This document shows, piece by piece, positions 1,323 through 33,224 of a stretch of 37,462 nt of DNA. Source of the stretch: Halobellus captivus (GTDB lineage: Archaea > Halobacteriota > Halobacteria > Halobacteriales > Haloferacaceae). Numbering within the stretch: position 1 is the stretch's first letter; each line of letters starts with the position of its first letter. The stretch lies in the NCBI RefSeq assembly GCF_007655485.1, contig NZ_VJXQ01000003.1:39398-76859 (forward strand), given 5' to 3'. The translations under genes were made by a program, and so were the position numbers. The notes under the pieces were generated by a model that was not told where the DNA came from, made no database searches, and worked only from the letters and a program-made list of their open reading frames with translations.

Positions 1323-1342
1323 CCCCCCAATTTCGACTGGAA
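1323..1342 (-). repeat. Degenerate origin-box-like element at the orc1 start
   Basis: The minus-strand 20-mer matches the oriC box core at about 15 of 20 positions: TTCCAGTCGAAA is kept and the middle AAAGG is replaced, but a six-G run follows. It begins 7 bp upstream of the orc1 start codon, so it could be both an accessory origin site and an orc1 operator. That role is inferred. Confidence 0.55.
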
Positions 1343-1786: not shown

Positions 1787-1813
1787 CCCCCACCCCTTTG
1801 TTTCGAGTGGAAC
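1787..1813 (-). repeat. Origin recognition box (left, inverted)
   Basis: A 27-bp element whose minus-strand core is TTCCACTCGAAACAAAGGGG followed by a G-rich tail. It is a perfect inverted copy of 2015-2041, with 201 bp between the two. The G-string points outward, away from the AT-rich centre. It matches the known haloarchaeal ORB layout (TTCCA..GAAAC..GGGG). Expected ligand: Orc1/Cdc6. Confidence 0.93.
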
Positions 1814-2014: not shown

Positions 2015-2041
2015 GTTCCACTCGAAACAAAGGGGTGGGGG
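2015..2041 (+). repeat. Origin recognition box (right)
   Basis: Plus-strand 27-bp element with core TTCCACTCGAAACAAAGGGG at 2017-2036, then a tail of TGGGG and further G. It is identical to the reverse complement of 1787-1813. It is preceded by a pyrimidine tract (C5-T-C11, 1987-2003), whose complementary strand carries an 11-G run. Confidence 0.93.
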
Positions 2042-7488: not shown

Positions 7489-8673
7489 TCACTTCTTGAG
7501 ACGTTCGACGACGTGCGCGTCGGCGGCGTCGAAGTCGATGCGGACGTCGCCGTCGAGCGGGTCGTCGGACCGAACCGTTAGCTCCCGGTCGCGCCACTGA
7601 AGGTACACCCGCGTCGAGTCCCCGAGGAATTCCGACTCCACCACCGTCGCGTCGAGGACGTTCGACCCGTCCGAACGTGCGTTTTCGTCCCTCCGAACTT
7701 CCATATGCTCGGGCCGAACGCAGAACACCACGCGGTCACCCTCCGAGACGTCCAGTGACGTCTCGACGCGAATCTCAACTCCACCGACGTCGACGGCGAG
7801 ATCCGGCTCGGCAGAACCCCCTCCGAACCCCTTTGTTTCGACTGGAGATTCACCCGATCCAGCCGCTGCATCCGTACGATTTTCCGCGTTTCGGGGTCGG
7901 ACGTCGAGGACGGTCCCCTCGAAGACGTTGTTGTCCCCGACGAACTCCGCGACGAATCGACTCTCGGGATGGCGGTACACGGCCCGTGGCGTTCCGATCT
8001 GCTCGACCTCGCCGTCGTTCATCACCGCGACCCGGTCGGAAATCGCGAGCGCCTCCTCTTGGTCGTGGGTCACGTAAACTGTGGTAATCCCGAGCGTCGA
8101 TTGGATCTCCTTGATCTGCATCCGGAGTCGCTCGCGGAGGCGAGCGTCGAGCGCGCTCATCGGTTCGTCGAGGAGAAGAAGGTCCGGACCGGGTGCGAGC
8201 GCCCGAGCGAGCGCGATGCGCTGCTGTTGTCCGCCGGAGAGTTCGGTCGGATCTCGATCGCCCGCGTTCGACAAATCGACGAGGTCGAGCAGCGACGCCA
8301 CGCGTTGGTCGCGAATCGCCCCGTCCGGCGGATCCGAGAAGCGGAGCCCGTACGCGACGTTCTCCGCGACCGAGAGGTGCGGAAAGAGCGCGTAGTTCTG
8401 GAAGACGACGCCCACGCCCCGATCCTCGGGCGGCACGCCGCGCATATCCCGACCGTCGAACCGGATTATCCCCGCGCTGGGCGAGTCGAACCCGGCGACG
8501 AGTCGGAGCGTCGTGGTCTTTCCGCAACCTGACGGTCCGACGAGCGTGAAGAACTCGCCGTCGCCGACCTCGAACGTGACACCGCCGTCGGTTCGGCTCT
8601 CGCCATCGCTACGCCGACCCAGCGCGACCGTCTCGCCGTACTCCTTTCGCACGTTTTCGAGCGTCAGTTTCAT
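7489..8673 (-). CDS. ABC importer ATPase, thiamine type (ThiQ-like)
   Basis: A 394-residue ATPase that powers the importer formed with the next two genes. Walker A is GPSGCGKTT at residues 46-54, the Q-loop lies in VVFQNYALFPHL, the signature is LSGGQQQRIALARAL from residue 145, Walker B is LLLLDEP and the H-loop is in YVTHDQEEALAISD. A C-terminal TOBE-like domain follows (VVFCVRPEHMEV, LGDSTRVYLQWRD), joined by a variable linker at about residues 265-290. That linker coding sequence contains an origin-box-like 20-mer (7828-7847). The start is ATG 8673, 2 bp after the permease stop, so the genes are translationally linked. The substrate is inferred from the binding protein. Confidence 0.92.
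   Translation of the reverse strand: MKLTLENVRKEYGETVALGRRSDGESRTDGGVTFEVGDGEFFTLVGPSGCGKTTTLRLVAGFDSPSAGIIRFDGRDMRGVPPEDRGVGVVFQNYALFPHLSVAENVAYGLRFSDPPDGAIRDQRVASLLDLVDLSNAGDRDPTELSGGQQQRIALARALAPGPDLLLLDEPMSALDARLRERLRMQIKEIQSTLGITTVYVTHDQEEALAISDRVAVMNDGEVEQIGTPRAVYRHPESRFVAEFVGDNNVFEGTVLDVRPRNAENRTDAAAGSGESPVETKGFGGGSAEPDLAVDVGGVEIRVETSLDVSEGDRVVFCVRPEHMEVRRDENARSDGSNVLDATVVESEFLGDSTRVYLQWRDRELTVRSDDPLDGDVRIDFDAADAHVVERLKK
7828..7847 (-). repeat. Origin-box-like 20-mer inside the transporter ATPase gene
   Basis: Minus-strand CTCCAGTCGAAACAAAGGGG differs from the oriC box core TTCCACTCGAAACAAAGGGG at only two positions. It lies about 5.8 kb from the right oriC box, within codons for SPVETKG in the variable linker of the ATPase. 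Confidence 0.65.
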
Positions 8674-8675
8674 AT

Positions 8676-10547
8676 TTAGAATCCCCCGCGTCCGCCGTAC
8701 CGACCGCCGAACCGTTCGATGATCACGAAGCTCAGGCTGGTGACCGCCAGCAGGATACAGCCCATCGCGGTCGCCGGACCGAGCCGCCGTCCCAGATAGC
8801 GTTCGACTGCGACGGGCATCGTGTAGCTCGTCGACCCCTCCGCGAGGACGACCGTCGAGTCGAACTCGCCGATCGAGATGGCAAAGACGAACGCCGCGCC
8901 CGCGACGACGCCTGCGGCGACCAGCGGCAATTCGATATCGACGAGCGCACGGACCCGACTCGCGCCGAGACTTCGCGCCGATTCGACCAGCCGAGGGTCG
9001 AGGTTCCCGAGCAGCGGCGCGACGTTCCGCGTCACGAACGGGTACGCGCCGACGGCGTGGGCGGCGACGACCGCGATCGCACCGGTCACCTGCAACCGCG
9101 TGCCGAACGCGTCGACGCCGAAGACGAGCCCGCGGAGCAGGCCGAGCCCGACCACGATCCCCGAGACGGCGAACGGTGCCATCGCGAGCGTGTCGATCGC
9201 GGCGCGACCGCGGAACTCCCGCGTCGTCAACACGGCCACCACGACGCCCATCGGCACCGCGACCAGAAGCGTCCCCACCCCGAACCGGAGCGAGTTCGCG
9301 ATCGCCGGAAGCGGCCGCACCTGATAGGAGGCACCGGTCTGCTGGCGTTCGAGGAGAAACAGGTAGTGATCCAGCGTCAACCCCTGCGGGCCGGTCAGGC
9401 TCGTGAGCACCATCGATGCAATCGGCCCGACGAACACCGCGAGCACGACCAGGCCGTAGCCGATGATCGCGACGCGCGAGCCCGTCGCCTTCGCGGTCCA
9501 CGAGTCGGGCCACAGCGACTGTCGGGGTTGCGGGCGCGCACCCTGTCCCGATCCGCGGTTGCGACCCTCATAGCGGAGGTACCAGTAGGTCAATCCGACC
9601 GAGATCGCGGTCTCGACGACGGCGAGGGCGGCCGCCTCGGCGTACGCGAGGTTCTGGATCCGCGAGTAGATGAACACCTCGACGGTCGCCAGTTGGAACC
9701 CTCCCAGCGCGAGGACGATCGGGAACGACGCGAACGTGAACACGAACGTCAGCGTCGCGCCGATGGCGACCGCCGGGAGCAACTGCGGAAGCACCACGTC
9801 GCGGAACGCACGCGTCGGCGACGCGCCGAGACTTCGAGCCGTCTCCACGGCGGAGGCGTCGACGCTCTCCCACGCGGCGGTCGTCACCCGCGCCACGAGC
9901 GGCGCGTTGTAGAACGCGTGCGCGATCACGATCGCCTCGATAGTGAACAGCAGCTCGACCGGCGGCAAGCCGAGCGCTCCCAACACCGCGTTGAGCGTCC
10001 CGTTTCGCCCGAACGTGGCGACGAACCCGATCGCGACCATAATCGAGGGCATCACGAACGGCAGGATCGTCAGCGAGCGAAGCGTCTCCCGGCCCGGGAA
10101 CTCGAACCGAGAGAGGATCCACGCGCCGGGAAGTCCCAACAGTACGGATGCGATCGTGGACAACAGCGCCTGATACGCGGTGAATCCGAAGATATCGACG
10201 AGGTAAAACCGCGAGGTGAGAACCGAGACAATCGGCTCGACCGTCAGTCGCCCCTCGACGAACACCGCGTCGACGAACACCGTTGCGACCGGGTAGTAGA
10301 AGACGACGAGGAGTACGAGCGCGGTGACGGCCGCGCCGAGCGTGAGCGCTCTCGCCTCCACCCGCCGACGGAGCGTCGCGGCGGCTGACCGAGCCTCCGA
10401 GAGCGCACCTTCTGCTTCCGATCCGCCGTCCGTCCGTGGCACGTTCAGGACTCCGGAACCGACGTCGTGGTCGTCGCTGATGGACGAATCACCGCTGTCG
10501 CCGTCACTTGCTGGCGAACTGCCGTTCCCACGCGTCGGTCCACTCAC
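8676..10547 (-). CDS. ABC importer permease, two fused domains (ThiP-like)
   Basis: A 623-residue membrane protein made of two homologous permease halves of about six helices each. Each half has an EAA-type coupling loop: ETARSLGASPTRAFRDVVLP near residues 235-254, and ESARSLGASRVRALVDIELP near residue 525. These loops dock onto the ATPase. The first 65 residues are polar, acidic and poorly conserved, so the true start could be an internal GTG/ATG. The annotated ATG at 10547 overlaps the 3' end of the binding-protein gene by 44 bp. Two-domain fusion is normal for the ThiP/FbpB class. Helix count and family are clear; the substrate (thiamine or its phosphates) is inferred. Confidence 0.9.
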   Translation of the reverse strand: MSGPTRGNGSSPASDGDSGDSSISDDHDVGSGVLNVPRTDGGSEAEGALSEARSAAATLRRRVEARALTLGAAVTALVLLVVFYYPVATVFVDAVFVEGRLTVEPIVSVLTSRFYLVDIFGFTAYQALLSTIASVLLGLPGAWILSRFEFPGRETLRSLTILPFVMPSIMVAIGFVATFGRNGTLNAVLGALGLPPVELLFTIEAIVIAHAFYNAPLVARVTTAAWESVDASAVETARSLGASPTRAFRDVVLPQLLPAVAIGATLTFVFTFASFPIVLALGGFQLATVEVFIYSRIQNLAYAEAAALAVVETAISVGLTYWYLRYEGRNRGSGQGARPQPRQSLWPDSWTAKATGSRVAIIGYGLVVLAVFVGPIASMVLTSLTGPQGLTLDHYLFLLERQQTGASYQVRPLPAIANSLRFGVGTLLVAVPMGVVVAVLTTREFRGRAAIDTLAMAPFAVSGIVVGLGLLRGLVFGVDAFGTRLQVTGAIAVVAAHAVGAYPFVTRNVAPLLGNLDPRLVESARSLGASRVRALVDIELPLVAAGVVAGAAFVFAISIGEFDSTVVLAEGSTSYTMPVAVERYLGRRLGPATAMGCILLAVTSLSFVIIERFGGRYGGRGGF

Positions 10548-30426: not shown

Positions 30427-32211
30427 TTAGATGAATTTCCGCACGGTCATATCCAGCGTGTCGAGGTCGAGAATAGGTGCGTATCCCACGTCGGGGTCGA
30501 TGTTGACGGATTTCTGGAAGTCGGTTTGAGACTGCCAGCAGCCCGAGTTCACTGCGAGGACGTCGTGGTACTTCCCCCACCCGAGCTTGTGCACGTGGCC
30601 GGTGTGGAACACGTCCGGGACTTGTTCCATCACGAGGTAGTCCTTCTCCTCCGGTGCGAGCCGCGTCTTCCCGCCGAACTGCGGCGCGACGTGTCGTTTC
30701 TTCAGGAGCTGGTACATCGCCTTATGCGGTTCGTCGTAGCTGGCTTTTCCGGCGGGTAGCTCCGCGATCACCTCGTCGAGCGAGACTCCGTGGTACATCA
30801 GTATCTTCACGCCCTCGACGGTGACGAGCGAGGGATTCCCCGTGATCCGGGCATCGTGGGCGGTCATTATCTCCCGCAACGTCTCGTTGAAACCGGGCTG
30901 CGGCTCCGCGAGTCGAACGGCGTCGTGGTTGCCCGGAATCATCAGAATTTCTATATCGCCGGGGACGTCCTTGAGGTGCTCTGAGAAGGCCTCGTACTGC
31001 TCGTAGATGTCGATGATATCGAGCTCTTCGTCCTGGTTCGGATAGACGCCGACGCCTTCGACCATATCGCCCGCGATGAGCAGATACTCCACGTGCTCGG
31101 CTTCGTCGGTGTGCAGCCAGTCGGCGAAGCGCCCCCACGCGTCGGCGACGAACTCTTGGCTCCCCACGTGGACGTCGGAGATGAGCGCCGCCTGGACGTG
31201 TCTGTCCGCGGTGTTCGGAGTGTACGTCCGCGGCACGTCCGGAAAGTACATCGAATCGACGAACATAATGCCCGCGTCGTCCGAGAGCGTCCCCTCGACG
31301 GCGATGCACTCGTCGAGCAGCAGTTCGTCGACGAGGTCGGCGAACTCGCGGTCTTTCATCACCAGACAGGGGAACGTCCCCGTGGTGTCTTCCAACTCGA
31401 CGAGCCAGTGGCCGCTTTTCGTCGAGCGGACGTCGTTAACGAGGCCGATCATCGCCGCGTCGGTCCCGCCGCTCATCGACTGGATGGCGTTCGCCGGGCG
31501 ATGATTCACGCGCCCGCGAAGCTGTTTTGAGAGCTTCTCGTAGCGGTCTCTGAACACCTTCACGAAGTCGCCATACTCGCCCGTACCGGTGCTCTGACCG
31601 GTCACGTCGCCCTCGACTTCCAGCGATCGAAGCGCCGGATCGGCGCTCCGGGACGCTGATCTGCTGTTCGCTGCGCCCACGGCGTCGATACCCGACGTAT
31701 CGCCGGTACCCGCTGTAATTCTATCACCGTTTTCCCCTGGAACCTCTTGTACTGATTCCTCGGGGGCTGTCTGTCGATTTAACTGCTCCTCTCCAGTGGA
31801 AACAAGGGGGTCTCCGCGGGCCGAAGACGGACGATCAGTATCGGTTGCTGATTCCGCGTCTGCCGCCTCCGCGTCGGCCGCTGCGGCTTCCGTCTCTCCC
31901 ACTTCTGCGTCCGTCGCTGCCGCGTCGGTCGCCTCTGCGCGCTCTCTTCTCTCTGCCTCCTCTCCCGCGTCTACTAGCTCACCTGCGCCCGGTGGGTTCT
32001 GCCCGTCGACCGCCGACCGCGACGCGGCGAGCGCGTCTCGGACGTCCGCGGCCGTGATTCGAAGCGTGTCGTCGTCGACGTGCTCGACGACAGCCTCGAG
32101 CGCTCTCCCCGGGGCGTCGGTGCTCGCGATGAGCGTCACAGCCTCCTGTTCGGCGTTGTATCCGCGCGCGGTGAGTTCGTGTACGATCCGAACCGGCGTC
32201 TCCAGAGGCAC
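30427..32211 (-). CDS. polD1: DNA polymerase D small subunit DP1
   Basis: A 594-residue small subunit of the archaeal replicative polymerase PolD, with a 3'-5' proofreading exonuclease. The N-terminal part starts VPLETPVRIVHELTARGYNA and is followed by a long disordered linker (about residues 75-220, rich in A, D, E, T). An OB-fold comes next (GLVNDVRSTKSGHWLVELED). The calcineurin-like phosphoesterase domain has ISDVHVGSQEF, GDMVEGVGVYPNQ, MIPGNHDAVR, MYHGVSLDEV and HTGHVHKLGWG, all metal ligands intact. GTG at 32211 is chosen; upstream residues in the frame are arginine-rich noise. The linker coding sequence carries an origin-box-like 20-mer (31791-31810). The DP2 subunit is not in this window. 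Confidence 0.94.
   Translation of the reverse strand: MPLETPVRIVHELTARGYNAEQEAVTLIASTDAPGRALEAVVEHVDDDTLRITAADVRDALAASRSAVDGQNPPGAGELVDAGEEAERRERAEATDAAATDAEVGETEAAAADAEAADAESATDTDRPSSARGDPLVSTGEEQLNRQTAPEESVQEVPGENGDRITAGTGDTSGIDAVGAANSRSASRSADPALRSLEVEGDVTGQSTGTGEYGDFVKVFRDRYEKLSKQLRGRVNHRPANAIQSMSGGTDAAMIGLVNDVRSTKSGHWLVELEDTTGTFPCLVMKDREFADLVDELLLDECIAVEGTLSDDAGIMFVDSMYFPDVPRTYTPNTADRHVQAALISDVHVGSQEFVADAWGRFADWLHTDEAEHVEYLLIAGDMVEGVGVYPNQDEELDIIDIYEQYEAFSEHLKDVPGDIEILMIPGNHDAVRLAEPQPGFNETLREIMTAHDARITGNPSLVTVEGVKILMYHGVSLDEVIAELPAGKASYDEPHKAMYQLLKKRHVAPQFGGKTRLAPEEKDYLVMEQVPDVFHTGHVHKLGWGKYHDVLAVNSGCWQSQTDFQKSVNIDPDVGYAPILDLDTLDMTVRKFI
31791..31810 (+). repeat. Origin-box-like 20-mer inside the polD1 linker
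   Basis: CTCCAGTGGAAACAAGGGGG matches the oriC core TTCCACTCGAAACAAAGGGG at 16 of 20 positions. It also closely resembles origin boxes of other haloarchaea, where TCCAGTGGAAAC is common. It lies in minus-strand codons for PLVSTG within the disordered DP1 linker. Confidence 0.6.
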
Positions 32212-32348: not shown

Positions 32349-33224
32349 ATGACGGACGAAGAGGGGAACACGCCCGATCGTCCGGACGACGCCGACGACG
32401 CGGCTCCGTCCGGTCGCGGGGACGTCGCCGACGAGGGGGCCCGGAGCGCAGACACGGACGGGCCAACCGAGGCACCGCAGCCCGAACACGACCGCGGACC
32501 GGATTCGGGCGACGACGACCGTATCCCCGTCGGCGTCGCCGAATCGCGTCGGAAATCCGAGGGCCGTCCCCGACCGCGACCCGGAACCCGAGCCGCCGAT
32601 CCGAACCAGAACATCGTCACGCGCTTTCGGACTGCCCAGAGCGGGCCGCTGTTGTTCATTCGCGAGACGCTCTACAGCGCGCTCGCGGTCGCCGCTGTCG
32701 GCTTTCTTCTCTTTGCGATCAGCGGCGTCTGGCCGCCGATGGTCGCCGTCGAGAGCGGCAGTATGGAGCCGGAGATGTACCGCGGCGATCTCATTTTCGT
32801 CACCGAGGAACACCGCTTCACGCCGGACTACGCCTACGAGGATACCGGCGTCGTGACGATCGACATCGGCACCGAAGAAGGATACCGAAGCTTCGGCGGC
32901 AACGGATCGGTCATCATCTATGACCCGCCCACTCGCGTCGGATCGCCGATTATCCACCGCGCGCACTTCTACGTCGAAGAGGGCGAGAACTGGTACGACC
33001 GCGCGGATCCCGCGTATATGAACGCGGACGACTGCGATCAACTCCGGAACTGCCCGGCCCCGCACTCGGGGTTCATCACGAAAGGAGACGCCAACGGGCA
33101 GTACGACCAGGCGACCGACATCGCCGGCCCCGTTCGACCCGAGTGGATCCGCGGCAGCGCCCGCCTCCGGATCCCGTACCTCGGCCACATTCGACTCGAA
33201 CTGGCCGGACTCGTAGCCGGGTAA
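32349..33224 (+). CDS. sec11: Signal peptidase I, archaeal/ER type
   Basis: A 291-residue membrane protease that removes Sec signal peptides. Residues 1-95 are an unusually long acidic cytoplasmic extension. A transmembrane helix follows (SALAVAAVGFLLFAISGVW, about 110-128), then the catalytic serine S138 in VESGSMEPEMYRGDLIFV and H203 in SPIIHRAHFYV. Using His instead of Lys as general base marks the S26B (Sec11) type. The late GDANGQYDQ segment matches the conserved GDNN-like box. A hydrophobic C-terminal stretch (IRLELAGLVAG) is short. It is divergent from polD1 with 137 bp between; no clear TATA is seen there. Confidence 0.93.
   Translation: MTDEEGNTPDRPDDADDAAPSGRGDVADEGARSADTDGPTEAPQPEHDRGPDSGDDDRIPVGVAESRRKSEGRPRPRPGTRAADPNQNIVTRFRTAQSGPLLFIRETLYSALAVAAVGFLLFAISGVWPPMVAVESGSMEPEMYRGDLIFVTEEHRFTPDYAYEDTGVVTIDIGTEEGYRSFGGNGSVIIYDPPTRVGSPIIHRAHFYVEEGENWYDRADPAYMNADDCDQLRNCPAPHSGFITKGDANGQYDQATDIAGPVRPEWIRGSARLRIPYLGHIRLELAGLVAG

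Follow-up and report, generated by a model that had tools for sequence, protein, structure and literature searches.

Selection acts on a DNA motif of the replication-origin type within polD1, the gene for the small subunit (DP1) of DNA polymerase D, throughout most Halobacteria. The motif is a box with the core of the oriC1-type ORB and lies where the gene codes for a linker; comparison of polD1 codon choice among relatives shows that it is the DNA motif itself that is maintained there. In the stretch analysed here, 37,462 nucleotides of a Halobellus captivus contig (NZ_VJXQ01000003.1; hereafter the window), polD1 carries one intact box which, judged against these relatives, is the surviving half of a conserved inverted pair whose partner has eroded. 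An origin-type signal inside a replicative polymerase gene suggests that the initiator protein also acts directly on the polymerase gene, and the polD1 boxes illustrate clearly how codon choice can maintain a regulatory DNA site within protein-coding sequence.

The polD1 box in the window and in the genome

The polD1 gene occupies positions 30427-32211 of the minus strand and, judged by homology, probably starts with the GTG at 32211. In Pfam its product matches DNA_pol_E_B/Metallophos, together with an OB-fold match below threshold. The linker spans residues 66-220 approximately; in the AlphaFold model, which is poor overall (mean pLDDT 42.6) and usable for the linker only, this segment has hardly any secondary structure and a pLDDT of about 30, in agreement with a disordered linker. 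The mini-ORB CTCCAGTGGAAACAAGGGGG lies on the plus strand at 31791-31810 (core 19-mer at 31792-31810), exactly where the earlier note had placed it, and the claim that it falls within the coding sequence of the linker likewise holds: the box corresponds to nucleotides 402-420 of the gene, is in frame and codes for GDPLVSTGE around codons 134-140. Relative to the gene it is a minus box. Its eroded partner, TCCAGGGGAAAACGGTGAT, lies at 31723-31741 on the minus strand, has four mismatches and is 69 bp from the intact box, a spacing of the two polD1 boxes that is also found in other Halobellus. The divergent neighbour of polD1 (32349-33224, plus strand) is signal-peptidase-I-like by an SGSMEP motif read from the sequence, its function being inferred; a Pfam search with this gene gave no match.

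The box is rare in the genome. A search of the window allowing up to three mismatches returned two matches (31791-31810, and 7828 on the minus strand) versus none in 100 shuffles. Exact TCCANTNGAAACNNNGGGG occurs four times in the 3.35 Mb genome, always within the window: in the oriC1 pair, in polD1 and in an ABC-transporter gene. As these few exact sites all share the window with oriC1, the motif is specific to the Orc1/oriC1 system. With one mismatch there are two further sites, about 42 kb apart on the same contig, one at window position 1323 and the other 6 kb past the right end. The left ORB of oriC1 (1793-1811, minus strand) adjoins an AT-rich stretch and the right ORB (2017-2035, plus strand) reads GGGGTGGGGGG; we take these two boxes as oriC1 because of the AT-rich stretch that they flank and their long, extended G-strings. 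The polD1 box is about 30 kb from oriC1. A chance match as the source of the polD1 box was ruled out by the window shuffles and genome counts, and by the codon shuffles and reversed-pattern control described below.

Two other boxes of the window deserve mention. The left end of the window falls inside the gene for the best Orc1 homologue, and the one-mismatch ORB TCCAGTCGAAATTGGGGGG (1323-1341, minus strand) immediately precedes what is probably the orc1 start codon, ending about 3 bp before it; a plus box is similarly placed in many relatives. Such a position suggests autoregulation of orc1. The second mini-ORB in coding sequence, TCCAGTCGAAACAAAGGGG, lies at 7828-7846 on the minus strand, within the gene of an ABC-transporter ATPase (minus-strand ORF 7489-9513). 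This box too is conserved within Halobellus: its exact core is present in four of the other Halobellus genomes searched (L229, L230, L232 and L233), where the frame reads SPVETKG or SPLETAG, and one copy is 70 kb from oriC1.

Conservation of the pair and constraint on the DNA

Comparison of polD1 linkers, set beforehand in the earlier note as the test that could refute it, was carried out on 80 other haloarchaeal polD1 loci, fetched with seed peptides that exclude the boxes. Of the 80 relatives, 78 have one or both boxes with no more than one mismatch; Halobellus G141 and locus L210 have no polD1 box even at two mismatches. The commonest form is an inverted pair, minus box then plus box, with a start-to-start spacing of 57 bp (19 codons) in 47 of 54 pairs and of 54, 69, 72 or 75 bp in the others. 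The intervening 38 bp are conserved in length and not in sequence, and the linker on either side varies (51-149 and 36-101 codons). The single box of the earlier note is real, but the conserved unit is the inverted pair, half of it eroded in this genome. Halobellus keeps the minus box, with the plus box eroded in most of its members, Halorubrum has the plus box only, and the boxes of Haloferax are degenerate. Most of the deep-branching families sampled lack boxes, though locus L222, from one such family, has an exact one. Given the boxless G141 and L210, the single box of Halorubrum, the degeneration in Haloferax and the absence from most deep-branching families, the element is not indispensable.

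A strict pattern for the pair, run against 293 genomes of the order, matched in 100 genomes belonging to 37 of 87 genera, whereas the reversed control pattern had no match in the same 293 genomes. All 30 strict-pair loci that were opened lie in polD1, in gene orientation. Among the matches listed there is one pair per genome, except in genome G270, which has two. As expected of a gene regulated by an initiator, a conserved box thus sits at a fixed position of the gene across species. Box-like matches near polD1 in other orders of the phylum were judged unrelated because conserved peptides explain them: some code for AVEMEG or AVEIEG in the catalytic domain of DP1, and others apparently for DSPVEIVGS in a gene lying downstream, which carries the cysteine-rich motif CxxCW.

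All polD1 boxes use a single reading frame, and a protein explanation therefore needed testing, in which short linker peptides (PVETKG, PSVSTG) are conserved and the DNA match is a by-product. The shared frame agrees with it, as does the ABC-transporter box, which likewise reads SPVETKG, yet third bases are frozen on rare codons despite changes of amino acid. At fixed box positions valine is GTT in 44 of 44 cases (7% elsewhere in these genes), threonine ACT in 42 of 42 (6%), glycine GGA in 41 of 41 (10%), proline CCA in 73 of 74 (8%) and glutamate GAA in 79 of 79 (27%), while TCT encodes 45 of the 46 serines that precede the plus box (6%). At degenerate box positions amino acids vary freely: one codon encodes V, A, P and others, and another encodes K, E or G with third base G in all 74 (AAG 33, GAG 27, GGG 14). 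When synonymous codons are shuffled with each protein unchanged, the boxes disappear: on average 0.95 of 81 genes, and never more than 4, still contain a box within one mismatch, versus 76 of 81 real genes. The figure of 76 is too low, since a frame slip in this count cut three genes short. Moreover, VSTG and PVETKG, two peptides unlike each other, encode one DNA motif on opposite strands. The codon data rule out a protein motif as the cause, and we assign this explanation next to no probability. The outcome that the earlier note had named as refuting did not occur, since 78 of 80 relatives have a box and its codon choice is frozen on rare codons; the proposal of selection at the DNA level, in a replication-gene linker that tolerates it, is supported.

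The codon data bear equally on a second explanation, that the boxes are a functionless remnant of an ancestral origin or box in an ancient orc1-polD1 neighbourhood. Such a neighbourhood finds support in the distance between the two genes, at most about 130 kb in 11 of the 11 genomes in which it was read. However, an unselected relic is expected to decay, and synonymous sites elsewhere in the polD1 genes are not frozen: in an ancestry-matched control, among 92 columns with an invariant V, T, G, P, E or S, there is not one whose commonest codon is GTT, ACT, GGA, CCA or TCT. Unless a very local mutation bias explains the codons, the remnant explanation is refuted, and we regard it as highly improbable.

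Candidate roles of the polD1 boxes

What kind of box is conserved in polD1? In alignment, the polD1 boxes and 122 oriC1 boxes from the same loci have the core TCCANNNGAAACNNNGGGGT in common, and the polD1 boxes match the profile of these oriC1 boxes at the fixed core positions; the core dyad with its short G run, TCCANNNGAAACNNNGGGG(T), is exact in the window. The extended, halophile-specific G-string that follows the core at oriC1 is missing: positions 21-25 are 85-99% G at oriC1 versus 1-45% G in the polD1 boxes, where they are C-rich or mixed. The earlier statement that the box fits the haloarchaeal ORB pattern is thus correct for the core and incorrect for the G-string of origin ORBs. A plasmid-borne oriC1 of Haloarcula hispanica lost its function when either G-string was mutated (PMC3936714). 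Since the long G-string essential for oriC1 is absent, we call the polD1 boxes mini-ORBs, a descriptive label only, and not an origin.

Could the pair nevertheless serve as an auxiliary part of oriC1, or as a second or dormant origin? Its boxes are divergent as in the oriC1 pair and polD1 is mostly 2-5 kb from orc1, yet an origin has inverted ORBs around an AT-rich region, between genes and next to an orc gene, whereas the pair of the relatives lies within a gene around a GC-rich spacer, usually of 38 bp (AT mostly 0.25-0.45). Nor does the G-string requirement (PMC3936714) agree with such a role, and the boxes are kept where orc1 is 40-132 kb away. We consider an auxiliary, second or dormant origin improbable; that the pair is an origin in its own right is very unlikely, and a full origin in polD1 was rejected for want of the G-string and the AT-rich region. 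A polD1 box with at most one mismatch is kept in 67 of 69 loci with orc1 adjacent and in 11 of 11 with orc1 outside the fetched flank; across complete or draft genomes the distance between polD1 and orc1 ranges from 1.6 to 132 kb, and boxes are kept at 78 and at 132 kb. Adjacency to oriC1 is therefore not needed for function, but in none of the 11 genomes measured had polD1 moved beyond this range.

The main rival to a role in polD1 itself is titration of the initiator, in which the polD1 boxes and the dispersed mini-ORBs near oriC1 would soak up free Orc1; doubled soon after firing, they would damp re-initiation, as do datA, near-oriC DnaA boxes and the oriC2D of Haloarcula. Each genome has only 4-8 exact cores, and orc1 is no more than 150 kb away from 63 of the 70. 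Even among cores outside oriC1 and polD1, 13 of 20 fall within this distance versus 1.5 expected, a clustering that favours titration as the rival explanation. Archaea offer a precedent in oriC2D, a proposed sink for Cdc6E (PMC3936714), and E. coli keeps a high density of DnaA boxes near its origin (PMC12371093). A pure sink, however, requires neither a fixed gene nor a fixed orientation and 57 bp spacing, and two sites are few for a sink; titration loci of the datA or oriC2D type are dense clusters, whereas polD1 has one intact box here and two in most relatives. Titration alone thus seems to us possible but doubtful, and control of polD1 and titration may also operate at once.

The other dispersed boxes mostly flank genes without a replication function (TBP, chaperonin, citrate synthase, IMP cyclohydrolase, NMD3), and a general Orc1 regulon of replication genes was rejected on this ground; one is upstream of uvrB and one lies between the genes of a Hel308-type helicase and IMP cyclohydrolase. 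Natrinema, Natronorubrum and Haloferax have intergenic mini-ORBs close to the gene for IMP cyclohydrolase (L125:1984, L128:2033, L133:2000), and the first two genera also have them in the gap that separates NMD3 from an M48 peptidase gene (L126:2052, L127:1997). In Halosegnis rubeus (L138:2058) an exact box lies within polD2, the gene for the large subunit of the same polymerase. Halobellus rarus has about three tandem copies of a short ORB-like unit, CCACCCGAAACAGGGGAA, in an intergenic stretch some 1.3 kb from oriC1 (L134:5990-6130), an array absent from the window.

We favour local control of polD1 over titration. ORBs are bound by one Orc1 each, with polarity (PMC12141716, PMC7776575), and binding of the polD1 boxes by Orc1, the oriC1-type initiator Cdc6A, is very probable given their core. 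Each box would hold one Orc1, in divergent orientation as at oriC1, and the bound protein would not open the DNA, for want of both an AT-rich unwinding region and a long G-string. It may instead act locally; a roadblock or a repressor some 400 nt inside the gene would be one form of this, its effect changing with the level or ATP state of Orc1 and coupling the supply of polymerase D to initiation. The boxes would lie in the linker because this segment of the protein tolerates the required codons. We infer an influence of bound Orc1 on polD1 transcription less firmly than the binding. That the conserved, Orc1-bound pair controls polD1 locally we hold to be about evenly balanced; that it adjusts the supply of polymerase D, and perhaps of free Orc1 too, to the state of the origin is a more tentative proposal, to which we lean slightly less than to its opposite. 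Against control of polD1 stand the more usual location of a regulator site near the promoter, and the other mini-ORBs that adjoin genes without replication function, such as those for TBP, chaperonin and IMP cyclohydrolase. A notable link in its favour comes from Haloarcula hispanica, in which cdc6A is far harder to delete than oriC1 and the authors infer a vital function of Cdc6A outside oriC1 (PMC3936714). The polD1 boxes are a concrete candidate for this unexplained role; local control, if true, would go some way towards accounting for the importance of Cdc6A beyond oriC1, and would represent an intragenic initiator operator that selection on synonymous sites maintains in most of the order. 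Because silent changes can erase the boxes, the question lends itself to direct testing in tractable species.

Comparison with known initiator-box systems

Dispersed initiator boxes in bacteria and one ORB cluster in Haloarcula are already known. A published survey of origins sought ORBs only in intergenic regions beside orc genes (PMC3528665), and we found no report in the open-access literature of the polD1 boxes or of an order-wide pair of initiator boxes in a polymerase gene. With the oriC1 ORBs of haloarchaea, served by Orc1/Cdc6A, the polD1 boxes have the core and the inverted, divergent arrangement in common, but they are intragenic, 57 bp apart and devoid of an AT-rich unwinding region and extended G-string. 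The oriC2D of Haloarcula hispanica (PMC3936714) resembles them in that initiator boxes lie outside the origin proper and a control role is proposed, yet it is a cluster downstream of cdc6E that acts on oriC2, whereas polD1 has one or two boxes of the oriC1 type. In bacteria, datA, DARS and DnaA-regulated genes likewise place initiator sites off the origin, concentrated in its vicinity, and dispersed DnaA boxes can titrate the initiator or regulate genes (PMC12371093, PMC8203912); the polD1 boxes differ in serving another initiator in another domain of life, and in being intragenic, in a polymerase gene and order-wide. Orc1-2 of Sulfolobus (PMC9738581) offers the likeness of an Orc1-family protein that acts on gene expression, but it is a non-initiator paralogue that regulates the response to DNA damage, whereas in polD1 it is an oriC1-type motif that lies within the coding region.
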